A stretch of 64,000 nt of DNA from Cyanocohniella sp. LLY (lineage in GTDB: Bacteria; Cyanobacteriota; Cyanobacteriia; Cyanobacteriales; Nostocaceae). A model generated the notes under the pieces. The model did not search any database. It saw only the letters and a program-made list of their open reading frames with translations, and was not told the DNA's origin. Where the stretch lies: assembly GCA_022241785.1 (NCBI GenBank), contig JAKOMP010000005.1, positions 1 to 64,000 on the forward strand. Direction: 5' to 3'. Positions 12,893 to 63,958 of the stretch are shown piece after piece; position 1 is the first letter of the stretch; each line of letters begins with the position of its first letter. The position numbers and the translations under genes were made by a program.

Positions 12893-13287
12893 GATATTTT
12901 CACCTTTGGTTGAGTGAGGTTTTTTTTAAGTGCTGATTGCTGAGTATTGAGTCCCTAGTCCCTAGCCTCTACAGGCAGTCTATGAGGACTACTACTTCCA
13001 GTTTAGTGAGACTTCTTGAAAGAGTCTGGTAGTGAACACCGACAAAAGAGGCAGGGGAGCAGGGGGCAGGGGGCAGGGGGCAGGGGGCAGGGGAGAAGAC
13101 GCCATTCATGCTTGGTTCCGTCAAAATTCAGGATGAAAGGCAAAATTTTCACCCTCATTTTTTATTGGGTCATTTTCCTAATTTTGCATCGGAAATTGGC
13201 AATTTGAACCCATTGTCAGCAGAATTTGATAGAAATTTTTGAATAGCAATAATTGAGCTAATATTTTTTAGTTTTTATTAGTTTTTA
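12893..13287. repeat. Intergenic region with GGGGGCA tandem tract
   Basis: Positions 13050-13095 contain about five tandem GGGGGCA-type units preceded by a GGGGAGC unit. This is a simple repeat of the kind scattered between Nostoc genes. Similar tracts appear inside MITE D at 63774-63801 and, on the other strand, within the caspase-STAND gene near 50510. A frame at 13016-13207 only translates this tract. The remainder is AT-rich, without a recognisable gene. Confidence 0.65.
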
Positions 13288-25050: not shown

Positions 25051-25181
25051 TAGACTGATTCTGTAGATATTTTAGAAGAGGCGATCGCCTATAGGACTCC
25101 TATTTAATTATTGAAAAAACTCTGTATACTCAAAAAATCTTCTTTCCTACTCCCCACTCCCAGCCTACGCAATTTTACTTC

Positions 25182-38307: not shown

Positions 38308-38427
38308 CAGGACTTACGCAAAATTATGAAAGAATAAACCGCAAAGGACACATAGACGCGCTAGCGGCTTCCCGCAGGGTAGGACACGAAGTTAAGAAGG
38401 TTTGAGAGAGTTCTTGCGTAAGTCCTA
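38308..38427. mobile_element. MITE family B, copy 2
   Basis: The ends AGGACTTACGCAA and TTGCGTAAGTCCT are perfect 13-bp inverted repeats, flanked by TAATC on both sides (38303-38307 and 38428-38432). The interior differs from copy 1 and holds a CGCGCTAGCGGCTTCCCGC segment of dispersed-repeat type. The rest of 38033-38439 shows no gene. Confidence 0.85.
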
Positions 38428-47229: not shown

Positions 47230-50200
47230 TTAATCATTTCGACAAATCAAGCGATCGCCTGGACTAACATTGGCATTATGATGAAGATAATTGGCAATAC
47301 GATCACATCCTTGCTGCATCAAATCATCTAAATCGAGATTCCACACCATCACACCTGCATCATCACCACCACTCACCAATGCTTTCCCATCGGGACTGAA
47401 ACTCAAGCTGTTAACTTTACCCTGATGTCCCAAGAGAGTTTTCAATAACGTACCATCTTTAATACTCCATAACCTGATAGTATTGTCAGCACTGCCAGAA
47501 GCCAATGTTTGACCATTAAAACTCAGACTAGTTACACCGTCTGTATGTCCAGTCAGAGTATGAATTAATTCACCATCAGCTACACGCCAAAGTTTGATGG
47601 TATTATCCCAACTAGCGGTAGCCAAAAGTTTGCTATCTGGACTGAATTTTACAGAGGCGATCGCTAACCCATGACTAGTTAAATTTTTTACTAAATTACC
47701 ATTAACATCCCATAATTTGACTGTATTATCAGCACTCCCAGAAGCCAGTAGATTACCATCAGAACTAAAATTGACGCTTGTCACTTCATCAGTATGCCCA
47801 GTCAAGGTGTTTAATAACTTACCACTATTAACATCCCATAATTTGACTGTATTATCAGCACTCCCAGAAGCCAGCAAATTACCATCGGAACTAAAACTAA
47901 TGCTAGTTACTCTATCTTCATGACTCGTGAGGATTTTGATTAACTGTTGATTATTGCTATCCCAGATTTTAATATTTTTATCAGCGCTAGCTGTAGCTAA
48001 AGTTTTGCCATCTGGACTGAAAATTACTGCATCAGCAATATCATTATGTGCTGAAAACTCCTTAACTAGAGATGTGTCTTTTTGCCAAATTTTAATATCA
48101 CCATTCCAACTTGCGGAGGCAAAATTTGTACCATCTGGACTGAAGCTAATACTGCGAATATCATTGTTTTTTAGGTGTTTATCTTGCCCTAGTTGCCAAA
48201 GTTTAATAGTGTGATCAGCACCAGCAGAAGCGATAATTTGACCATCAATACTAAAGCTAATATCTCTAACTGCTTCACCATGTCCTTGAATTGTTTTTAA
48301 TAAGTTACCATTTAATTGCCATATTTTAATAGTTTCGTCATTACTAGCAGAAGCTAAAATTTGATTATCTGGACTAAATTTAATGCTATTGACTTGCTCA
48401 CTGTGAGCTTCTATATTTTGTAATACTTTACCTTGCTCATTCCATATTTTAATAGTTTTGTCACCACTAGCAGAAGCTAAAACTTGATTATCTGGACTGA
48501 ATTGCACCCGGGTAATCCGTCCTTGATGTCCTCTGAGAGTTGTAATTAAATTACCATCATCTACTTGCCAAAGTTTTACTAAATTATCTTCACCACCAGA
48601 AGCAATAATTTTACTATCAGGACTAAAGTTAACTGTATTTACCCAGCCATCATGAGCTTTCCACGAATTAATTAACCTGCCGTCAGTTTGCCAGATTTTT
48701 ACAGTGTTATCCAGGCTTGCTGAAGCCAGTATTTTGCTATCAGCACTGAAACTTACATCGGTAACAATGTCATTTTGTCCAGTGAAGATTTTGATTAACT
48801 GACCATGAATATCATAAATTTTAATATTATTATCAGCATCAGCAGCAGCTAATAACTTACCATCAGGACTAAACGCAATAGCTGTAACTCTGCTTTGACT
48901 CCCGGAAATAGTCGTTATTAAACTCCCATCTTGGCGCCAGAGCTTAATGGTTCTATCATCACTAGCAGAAGCTAAAATCTCACCATCTGGACTAAAAGTT
49001 ACGGCATTAACTTGTTGACTATGACCGGGAATACGGTGAATTTCTTGACTTTGGTAAATAGCTTGTTGAAAAGTCGCCGCCGTAGATAATTTAATCTCTG
49101 GTGATGGTGAAAAAACTTGTTTAATTTCTCGCCCAGCCTTAACACTAGCAATCACAGCTTCTAATTGTTGATGAGATAATAAAAATGCTTGGGATGATGC
49201 ATTTAAAGCCGCAATTTCTCTTAATTGAGCCGCTTGTTTTTGCAAATAAGCCAAACCGCCAAAACCACTAGCCGCAATTCCTAAAACACTGATAACTATC
49301 ACCGCTATTTGAGCTTGTCGCAGACGCTTTTTTTGCTCACGTTGTTGATGTTCTCTAGCAGCTAAACAAGCAGAGATAAAATATTGCACATCAGCAGATA
49401 ATTCATCTATATATTTGACAAAAATTTCTTCTGCTTCCGCCAAACGGTTACCTTGTAACAAAAAATCTGACTGCTGCTGATTATGTTGCCACAAAGCAGC
49501 TGATTGTTCAATTTGACGCTGCGATCGCAATCGACTACGATTTTCTTCTAACCACCAGCGTAATGTTGACCAGTGGCGGATGAGGATTTCGTGAGCAACT
49601 TCAATAGTGACCGCCCCAGATGCAGTGATAGAGTCAACTTGTTCGCCTTTGCTACCCTCAACTACAGCCTCATTTTCTAAATTCACTACAATTAACTTCG
49701 CCGCAGTTAAAGCGACAAGAGTCCTTTCTACCAAAGCCTGGGGATACTTCTGCACAACCAACTCAGATTTCAAGACTCGCCGTCTAGTATCTTCTGTACC
49801 TTCCCCTAATTGTGTGAGTGAGAGAAAAATCCAGCGCGCGCATTCTTGAGCGGGACTATCTAAACTATCGTAAACTTCCTGGGCTTTGCGTTCCAATGCG
49901 CCTTTGATACCGCCAATTTGCTGTTTATAAGCAGCTAAAGTTAATTCACCTGCTTGGCGAAATTCCCACAATTGCTCAAGCACAAATTCCAACAGTGGTA
50001 AATCTCCCGCTGAGTGGTTTAACTCTTGTAAGAGAACTTCCACTAGTCCTGGTTCTACCTTTAACCCCACTTGTTCCGCTGGGTTGAGCATCACACGACG
50101 GTAATCTTCATCACTCAACTTGGGAGGTACTAACACACTTGATTCTTGCAATAACTGAGCCAGTGCGGGTATTTCCAAACAAGCAGCGATAAAATCAGCT

Positions 50201-52422
50201 CGTACAGTCAAAACCAACTTAAATTTATCAGCCGCATATTTGATTGCTCCCAACAGCAAGTCTAAAAACCGTTGTCTATCTTCACTGGGTGCGAGGGTGA
50301 ATAATTCTTCACACTGGTCTACCACCAAAACCACCATCGGCTCAGGGCGGCTACGTAGCCAATAGACAAAGCCTTCTACTCCTTGGTAGAGCATGGCTTC
50401 CAGGATGTGGGAAGATGTAGACGCTGCAACGCCTTCCCGCAGGGCGGGAGATGAGGGAGATGAAAAACAAAGATGTTGGTAATCACCAAAAGTCTTTCCC
50501 CCTGCACCCTGCCCCCTGCCCCCCTGCCTCTTCATCCCTACTCTCCACTCCCTACTCCCTACTCCCAATGCTTCCAATGCTTCCACAGGACTTGTACCGG
50601 GACGAATGTTGATAATTAACCAGGAGTCACTACCAGGGAGTTGTTTACCCAGGCGCAACTGAGCTATTAGTCCTGCTTGGACTACAGAAGATTTACCGCT
50701 ACCGGATGCGCCAACTACAGCCAGGAAGGATTTGTGGGCTAGTTGACTTAGTAACTGCTGAGTTAAGGATTCTCTACCGTAGAAATATTGGGCGTCGTCT
50801 TCGCTAAAGGCTTTTAATCCCCGGTAGGGGCAAATTCTTAAATCTAATGTGGCTTTTTTATGGTAGGAGCTACTGGGAGGAATGATTTCTATCACCCCTT
50901 GGGTACCAGATAGCCAAATATGCAGTGGTGAGGGGGTAACTTGTGTATGTGTTGCTAAATGAATTTGTAATTGGGTAATCCAAGCTGCTACTGATAAACC
51001 ATCGGTTTTTTTTGCTGCTTTTAAAGTCTCGATGAGTGCTTGGGTAAATAGTTCTGAGTTGTTTTTAGGAAAAGTCGCAGCAATGATGCACTGTCCTTTT
51101 TCGGTATCAAGTTGCAATTCTTCTAGCCACTCTTGTAGGGACACACTGTGGGAACCCAATGGACAATCTAAAATAATGATTTGCTGGGTAACTGAAGAAC
51201 GGCGTAACTGCTGTCTTAACCAAGAACGACTTAACCAAATCTCATCTAACAATACGAAAGCTGCTTCTCCTGATGGGGTTTCTTCGATTCGCCCACGCAG
51301 ATATAACAATACTATTGCTGGTTCTGTGGTTTTCGGTTGCTGTGATTGATGGGTGGAACGCAAACAGGTTTTGATGGTTGCACGAATATCTTTGGCGGTG
51401 GTGGTTCCAGAACGGGGTAAATACTCTAACTCAAAGGCTCCAGCATCACCCAAAACTTTACTAAAATCTAATGCTGCTTGCGAGCCTCTAATGCCTTCTA
51501 ATACTAATGCTATTCTAGGGGGTAAAGATTCTGCGATCGCCGGGATATTTCCTAAGATTAATTCGCCAATACCTTCAACAATGCGTTTAGGCGTTTGCAG
51601 AGGATATTCACTATAAAGTTGAGTATCTCCTTTACCACGTTTTTGCTGGTTGATTAACCTTAACTGTTGATTAGTTTTATCAATATATTGCAAGGTTTGG
51701 TGATACACATAGCGATAAAGCCCATCAGCCGAAATTACACCTTGAGCATCGGCAGCATCTCCGTGCAAACCCCGCATTAAATAATAAGTAAATACCCCAT
51801 GTCCCAGTTCGGGAAACTCCCAAGATAGCTGGTCTGTGTCGCAAGAAAGTAAAGCATAAAAACCCCTACTTTTAGCAGCGCGTTGCTGTAATACTGCCAC
51901 CAGTTGCTTTGTGGGGTTTAGTCCTCGTAATGTCATGCCCCCACTATGGCAAGCATCCAGCCAGATTAATTGATTTTGAACGCCACTATTAGCCAATAAT
52001 TGTAACAATTCTTGAACAGCTAAACCTGTCGTTTCCAGATGATCTTTTTGTGTATCTGCTAAACAAAGAAATGCTTGCTGAGTATGAGTTTGCAGCATTC
52101 CATGACCAGAAAAGTAAAAGAGAATTGTATCCTGTGGTTGAGCTTTGGTAGTGATTTGCTGTAAGCTGGCGCGTACTGTTGCTAAAAGCGGCGGTTGCGG
52201 AGCAAAATCGTGATAAATATTAATATTTTTTTGGGCGAATTGCTCTTGAGTGGCGCTGGTTAAAGCTGTTGCTAATACCTGACAATCAACGGCTGAGTAA
52301 CGTAGACACGGTAATTGCTCATCTTGATATTGATTCACTCCCACCAACAATAACCACAGTTTAGGAGTAATTTTAGGCTGAATTTGAGTTGAACGACCAG
52401 TAGTAACACCTAGTGGGGGCAT
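47230..52422 (-). CDS. Caspase-like / STAND NTPase / WD40 repeat protein
   Basis: The 1730-residue protein has four parts. (1) Residues about 20-265: caspase-like (peptidase C14) domain with His in YFSGHG near 107 and Cys in DACHSG near 157. (2) About 300-510: an alpha/beta region of unknown type. (3) About 530-1030: a STAND-type NTPase with P-loop GASGSGKSS near 570 and Walker [11 protein letters not shown] near 705, then one membrane-like helix near 1040. (4) About 1130-1710: fourteen WD40 repeats, enough for two seven-bladed propellers. Residues about 618-672 derive from intergenic repeat DNA. Such proteins are thought to act in programmed cell death or defence; here no partner gene is obvious. 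Confidence 0.9.
50409..50576 (-). repeat. Intergenic-type repeat DNA inserted in the STAND coding sequence
   Basis: Within the NTPase domain the minus strand reads GGGAGTAGGGAGTAGGGAG, GGCAGGGGGGCAGGGGGCAGG and GCGGGAAGGCGTTGCAGCGT, all typical of Nostoc intergenic repeats (compare 13050-13095). The insert encodes about 50 residues between Walker A and Walker B without breaking the frame. Confidence 0.8.
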
Positions 52423-63638: not shown

Positions 63639-63958
63639 ATTCTAATTCTCCAGATATTTACTCAATTTTGAATCAAACTCAACGCTTGCGAGTTAGTGAT
63701 GGAAAAATTAAATTTATTTTAGATGATTGCCCGAAGGGACTTCCAATTAAAAAAATAATCAGTCACTGTGTAGGCAGGGGAGCAGGGGAGCAGGGGAGCA
63801 GGGGGAAAAGAAAAGAAAAATATCACCTGAATAAATTGAGTAATTTATTCTCTGGAAGTCCCGAACGCTTCCACATTGCTGATGAAGAAGTTATTCAGGG
63901 TACGCCTTTACCACCAATGAGCATCTCCTCACTGCATTTATACTGTTGTTTACAGTGA
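63629..63958 (+). other. ORF interrupted by MITE D
   Basis: A frame from TTG 63629 stays open through the MITE, but the MITE-free joint would give a different C-terminus ending soon after (DCPNASTLLMKK). The first part (DIYSILNQTQRLRVSDGKIKF) looks slightly protein-like, without a known family. I cannot tell whether it was a gene. It overlaps the start of the GNAT gene on the opposite strand. Confidence 0.3.
63736..63862. mobile_element. MITE family D, copy 2
   Basis: A 127-bp element with ends GGGACTTCCA and TGGAAGTCCC is flanked by GAA on both sides (63733-63735 and 63863-63865). The interior contains three GGGGAGCA units and an AT-rich arm. Copy 1 is at 42387-42537. Confidence 0.75.

Follow-up and report, generated by a model that had tools for sequence, protein, structure and literature searches.

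How does G-rich repeat DNA of the kind that lies between genes come to lie in frame inside the NTPase of a conserved protein, and does the protein change with it? The locus that raises this question lies on the minus strand of a 64,000-nucleotide stretch of Cyanocohniella sp. LLY (contig JAKOMP010000005.1, positions 1 to 64,000; hereafter the window). A sequence-only reading of the window had proposed that intergenic repeat DNA was captured in frame within a STAND NTPase; dozens of dispersed copies in the same genome and an open reading frame bear this out.

The host gene and its captured segment

The host ORF (47230-52422, minus strand) runs uninterrupted across the captured segment and encodes 1730 aa, so the reading frame does survive, as had been claimed. 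Its nSTAND1 domain (PF20703) is essentially full length (Pfam E 4e-123, profile positions 1-378 of 379), and a profile match above the cut-off together with Walker A and Walker B motifs places the protein among the nSTAND1 NTPases. A Peptidase_C14 domain (E 1.7e-15) and the caspase His/Cys motifs SGHG and DACHSG, both visible in the translation, place it likewise among caspase-like proteins, and Pfam recognizes 14 WD40 repeats. Tandem DNA duplications of 126 and 123 bp in the WD40 part (window 47701-47945 and 48319-48555) point to recent blade duplication. The adjoining genes, read by eye, resemble an SDR dehydrogenase, a glycosyltransferase, and a cyanophycinase-like protein. The features of the locus are as follows:

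47230..52422, minus strand: caspase (Peptidase_C14) - nSTAND1 NTPase - WD40 repeat protein, host of the insert (ORF and Pfam)
50689..50712, minus strand: Walker A, GASGSGKS, residues 571-578, nearly invariant across 25 orthologues
50563..50586, minus strand: 9-bp tandem duplication GAAGCATTG (EALEAL) that overlaps the insert at its 5' edge (TRF and alignment)
50411..50573, minus strand: captured segment (loop 1), residues about 617-672 (own-genome matches and orthologue alignment)
50535..50568, minus strand: module 1, GGGAGTA heptamer array, 4-5 units (TRF and own-genome copies)
50493..50531, minus strand: module 2, GGCAGGG / GGGGGCA array (TRF and exact genomic 14-mers)
50464..50501, minus strand: module 3, AT-rich non-simple core GGGGGGAAAGACTTTYGGTGAGTACCAACATCTTTGTTTTT, common to dispersed copies (alignment of 39 own-genome copies)
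50445..50463, minus strand: module 4, TCATCTCCC array (alignment of own-genome copies)
50411..50444, minus strand: 3' G/C-rich stretch with GCGGGAAGGCG, of weak repeat status
50299..50322, minus strand: Walker B region, VDQCEELF, residues about 701-708 (orthologue alignment)
49621..49674, minus strand: loop 2, residues 917-934, in the wing hairpin, the family's second hot site (pLDDT below 50 and orthologue comparison)

Loop 1 lies between Walker A and Walker B and comprises 52 residues, compared with a constant 14 in a clade with a fixed loop. Its coding DNA is G-rich first and then C-rich, and is free of stops in one sense frame only, the remaining two containing stops. TRF resolves module 1 as 4.6 units of period 7 (50535-50566), the tandem 7-nt G-rich arrangement that characterizes the G-rich heptamer (STRR) arrays of Nostoc. 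At the 9-bp duplication GAAGCATTG the codons differ from those of relatives, which keep EALAQRL.

Used as a 181-bp query, the segment finds 50 further matches in its own genome (E < 0.001, best E 1e-28), the best of them covering about 80-130 bases at 81-91% identity. The alignment of 39 of these copies defines a unit that opens with G-rich heptamers at its 5' side, continues through a GGCAGGG block and about 40 bp of AT-rich core, and closes with a C-rich TCATCTCCC array, and the 14-mer GGCAGGGGGCAGGG occurs 84 times in the genome, compared with no occurrence of its reversed control. This unit of heptamer array, GGCAGGG array, AT-rich core, and TCATCTCCC array exceeds what the sequence-only reading had named, namely three minus-strand strings (GGGAGTAGGG at 50550/50557, GGCAGGGGGGCAGG at 50515, and GCGGGAAGGCG at 50430) said to be the same as intergenic repeats of the window. 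Elsewhere in the window the exact strings are absent, but close relatives of them are present at 13046-13100 (94% over 35 nt), 63772-63808 (89%), 25138-25161, and more weakly at 38353-38389. The stretches at 13046-13100 and 63772-63808 are themselves arrays of the captured type, with GGCAGGG and GCAGGGGA units. Genome-wide, repeat status is strongly supported for the segment but poorly for the third string, GCGGGAAGGCG, which we rejected as a repeat after it gave 5 matches at up to 3 mismatches compared with 2 in the control. The start of the 3' stretch that holds it also follows the element in one own-genome copy (L129) and gives the weak match at 38353-38389.

None of the own-genome copies examined lies within a conserved gene. 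Where long frames run over copies, either the conserved part lies downstream of the element or no recognizable protein is encoded; longer ORFs considered as further coding cases (e.g., L148 and L149) were dropped on by-eye inspection, which placed the element upstream of the conserved protein's apparent start. How often coding captures occur across the whole genome is estimated from samples. Across 20 related genomes, the simple arrays that flank the AT core match widely, and the core itself is nearly private to the lineage: among the matches listed, the sole one spanning it is in LEGE 11386, the closest relative, whose contigs end within the insert. At one such contig end (L150, G010:C183, 45780-45807), an apparent Nextera adapter sequence marks the assembly break. 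The segment is homologous to non-coding dispersed repeats of the same genome and absent from orthologues with the frame kept, as expected of a small dispersed repeat captured in frame.

AlphaFold2, supplied with an alignment of 52 sequences, predicts the NTPase core confidently, mostly above pLDDT 90 (217 of the 461 modeled residues reach at least 90), and assigns pLDDT below 50 to residues 625-665 and 917-934. In this model, the captured segment is predicted to form a disordered loop between two helices, outside the NTPase core, and residues 917-934 a loop between two strands, in the hairpin of the winged-helix part. A fold search yielded general AAA+/STAND structures at low TM-scores, none of them informative about the loop. 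The sequence-only reading had left it undecided whether the insert is a neutral loop or has changed the NTPase; the full-length nSTAND1 match and the predicted disorder beside a confident core favor the neutral loop.

Loop contents across orthologues

Conservation of the peptide in distant orthologues would speak against capture, and this was not seen: distant orthologues hold an unrelated, constant loop of 14 residues. Loop 1 is exactly this long, and of the LVDSGTEKEKA type, in 29 sequences, with a median GGG/CCC density of 2.4 per 100 nt; in the 20 sequences whose loops have at least 17 residues (up to 66) the median is 17 per 100 nt, compared with 2.2 for the remainder of the gene. Orthologues from many filamentous cyanobacterial genera contain repeats here, including (GGGGAGCA)n, (GGGACAAG)n, 9-mers such as GGGGAGGCA, and GGGGAAT-type arrays, and the frame is open in every case seen. 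The loop 1 inserts of four relatives were searched against their own genomes and all four proved to be dispersed there, as different families; those of Tolypothrix brevis, Nostoc punctiforme NIES-2108, and Nostoc CMAA1605 each have at least 40 dispersed copies. The fourth, from Mastigocoleus MO_188.B34 (L076), is the cleanest case of loop 1 capture. Its loop contains 69 extra nt, a 73-bp TAGCCCCC...GGGGGGCTA palindrome with inverted ends that is unrelated to the other repeats; the palindrome is dispersed in both this genome and that of its sister M. testarum, in copies 80-90% identical, and in M. testarum the site is empty, between flanks 94-96% identical to those of MO_188.B34. The element begins and ends in TA, but the 69-nt length difference from the sister misfits a clean TA target duplication.

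The loop was excluded from a quick tree of 76 relatives, on which gain is not separable from loss. The repeat/no-repeat state requires at least 7 changes on this tree when states are assigned by hand, 6 of them forced by well supported branches, and 9 under four objective density rules. Loop content turns over even inside filled clades: in the sister pair Nostoc T09 and 106C (L038/L097), the flanks are 93-95% identical and loop 1 only 47%, which is near the value for unrelated sequences under such an alignment. Judged by these comparisons, repeats have landed in loop 1 again and again and are probably tolerated there, which is not the pattern of a one-off accident.

Capture recurs across genera, beyond the single insertion described by the sequence-only reading, and the gene has a second loop with similar behavior. 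In the window copy, loop 2 is modest and lacks arrays; in many relatives (e.g., L002, L036, L059, L074, L083, L101, and L102) it holds inserts of G-array, AT, and C-array sequence, and three of these (L059, L083, and L102) combine a fixed loop 1 with a filled loop 2. At the same loci, repeat-dense windows make up 0.81% of caspase-STAND family genes, 0.58% of intergenic DNA, and 0.05% of neighboring ORFs, where one of the few matches is a family paralogue, judged by sequence. Arrays in coding sequence are often built of phase-neutral 9-bp units (L031, L036, L058, L069, L083, and L102), and those in nearby intergenic DNA mostly of 7- and 14-bp units.

Other proteins contain comparable inserts. 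In this genome, the RsgA GTPase (L165, G000:C147:114800-115945) has an in-frame repeat insert in an N-terminal loop that is hypervariable across Nostocaceae (orthologues L203-L231), which extends the hot-loop effect beyond immune-like proteins to a housekeeping GTPase. An NRPS adenylation domain of the same genome (L177, G000:C13 near 55106) reads an in-frame RGRGQGAGSRGETEDQSCNSE ahead of its LYKTGDLARYLPDG motif, and a Usp/CBS-domain protein of Tolypothrix brevis (L254, 134-1300, minus strand) contains an in-frame GGQVGQGG...SPSSPSSPSS insert; both are likely further captures.

Origin and effect of the inserts

We consider it highly probable that these inserts reflect neutral, frame-filtered capture of dispersed non-coding composite repeats at a permissive, disordered STAND loop, with no new catalytic role. 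A copy of the composite repeat would enter the solvent-exposed, disordered loop between two helices that separates Walker A from Walker B, perhaps by ectopic recombination or template switching between repeat arrays or, in Mastigocoleus, by insertion of a small palindromic element. Slippage may afterwards lengthen or shorten the arrays, purifying selection would discard copies that shift the frame or bear a stop, and an insert would be retained if the protein stays readable with its length and frame. Of 117 frames read in the 39 own-genome copies, 62 are free of stops. With about 1 in 3 random captures keeping phase and about 1 in 2 open, we infer that roughly 1 in 6 would be readable by chance, so that selection against the rest suffices and no exotic process is necessary.

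Could the loops instead have grown in place, by replication slippage of a native G-rich/C-rich sequence and without any capture? Short native loops already read GGGGAG...CCCCATCTC, unit number differs between close relatives (e.g., L031/L036 and L057/L092), and 9-bp units are commoner in coding than in nearby intergenic arrays (13 of 43 compared with 1 of 21, p = 0.025, with kinship ignored and flanks unselected). This bias is only a hint, and as proof of frame-selected slippage we set it aside: the p value is weak and 9-mers also occur between genes in the genomes that have them. Slippage cannot supply the roughly 40-bp non-simple AT core that the window insert has in common with dozens of intergenic copies, nor the Mastigocoleus palindrome with its dispersed copies and the empty site of the sister species, and the AT core refutes it as the whole story. 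We regard de novo expansion as unlikely, and slippage as a likely secondary process following capture.

Neutral tolerance at a permissive loop is the simplest reading of function. The family's array density could nevertheless mean that the loops act, and repeat capture might then vary the surface of an immune-like conflict protein, in the manner of diversity-generating retroelements (DGR). Such a role would fit the strong enrichment of inserts in the family over neighboring genes, the existence of two separate hot loops, the proposal that proteins combining caspase, STAND, and propeller domains are conflict systems (PMC7159879), and the use of nSTAND1 proteins as DGR targets elsewhere (PMC10907252). 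It fits poorly with loops that sit in the NTPase and wing rather than in the WD40 sensor, with peptides that are driven by composition, with loops of just 4-16 residues in many orthologues, and with a similar hot loop in the housekeeping RsgA, and we consider adaptive diversification distinctly improbable. We also give little weight to a scenario in which a few loops of filamentous cyanobacterial proteins (two in caspase-STAND proteins, one in RsgA) are standing hot sites where lineage-active intergenic repeats are repeatedly swapped in frame, so that loop diversity arises rapidly and selection on the STAND switch uses it. That the inserts act instead as DNA or RNA, with a G-tract quadruplex or an mRNA hairpin modulating expression of the host gene, seems very improbable. 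Related heptamers of Nostoc PCC 7120 form quadruplexes in vitro (PMC4692102), and the inserts of L101 (z -3.4) and L076 (z -4.0) fold better than shuffles, but the window insert does not (z -0.58), nor do those of L092, L097, and L036; such repeats are under-represented in coding strands (PMC4692102), and a search of the insert for structured RNA matched no Rfam family. Contigs of several relatives (L044, L064, and L096) end inside the loops, as assembly or sequencing artefacts might, but inserts also occur in single-contig genomes (L002 in G032 and L003 in G028), they are always in frame, and that of the window is interior to a 138-kb contig, which leaves artefact scarcely credible.

These loops, which occur empty, short, or filled in different relatives, offer a natural series in which to follow the conversion of repeat into protein, its rate of turnover, and the response of a STAND NTPase. 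They also carry the warnings that short-read assemblies break in genes of the host family and that proteomes of filamentous cyanobacteria may contain repeat-derived peptides.

Comparison with known repeat systems

Nostoc-type cyanobacterial genomes reportedly contain very small mobile repeats, the small dispersed repeats (SDR; Elhai et al., 2008, as cited elsewhere), which the modules of the window would resemble in being very small repeats of such genomes. The GGGGA(C/T)T repeats of Nostoc and the STRR heptamers of heterocystous cyanobacteria are also similar, consisting of G-rich heptamer units that are mostly intergenic and belong to the same group of organisms. The Nostoc heptamers form quadruplexes in vitro and are depleted in ORFs (PMC4692102); the sections of that study consulted do not describe recurrent in-frame capture at fixed loops of proteins. 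Within nSTAND1 proteins themselves, DGR-diversified STAND conflict proteins (PMC10907252) likewise combine a hypervariable segment with a multicellular bacterial host, but here both length and content vary, and in the NTPase rather than the sensor.

Small repeats captured in frame have precedents in Rickettsia palindromic elements (RPEs; Ogata et al., 2000) and in enterobacterial and Neisseria MITEs (PMC2229807). A segment captured in guanylate kinase reportedly left the enzyme active with altered substrate affinity, and RPEs have also been reported within RNA genes (PMC2229807). The Mastigocoleus palindrome TAGCCCCC...GGGGGGCTA would be of the general MITE type (PMC2229807). The window insert resembles RPEs as a small dispersed intergenic repeat that lies in frame in a conserved protein and is apparently tolerated, but it is not an RPE proper, having neither a long stem-loop (z -0.58) nor a reported terminal inverted repeat. 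The literature searched, with Elhai et al. (2008) outside that search, contained no report of recurrent capture at fixed loops in cyanobacteria. Within that limit, the kind of event is already known from RPEs, and recurrent capture at one loop is a new variant of it. RPEs are palindromic and enter different genes, and descriptions of in-frame capture usually concern single events scattered among genes; in the present case, inserts that are mostly G-array/AT/C-array composites rather than clean palindromes, and that belong to multiple families, have re-entered one and the same loop across genera.
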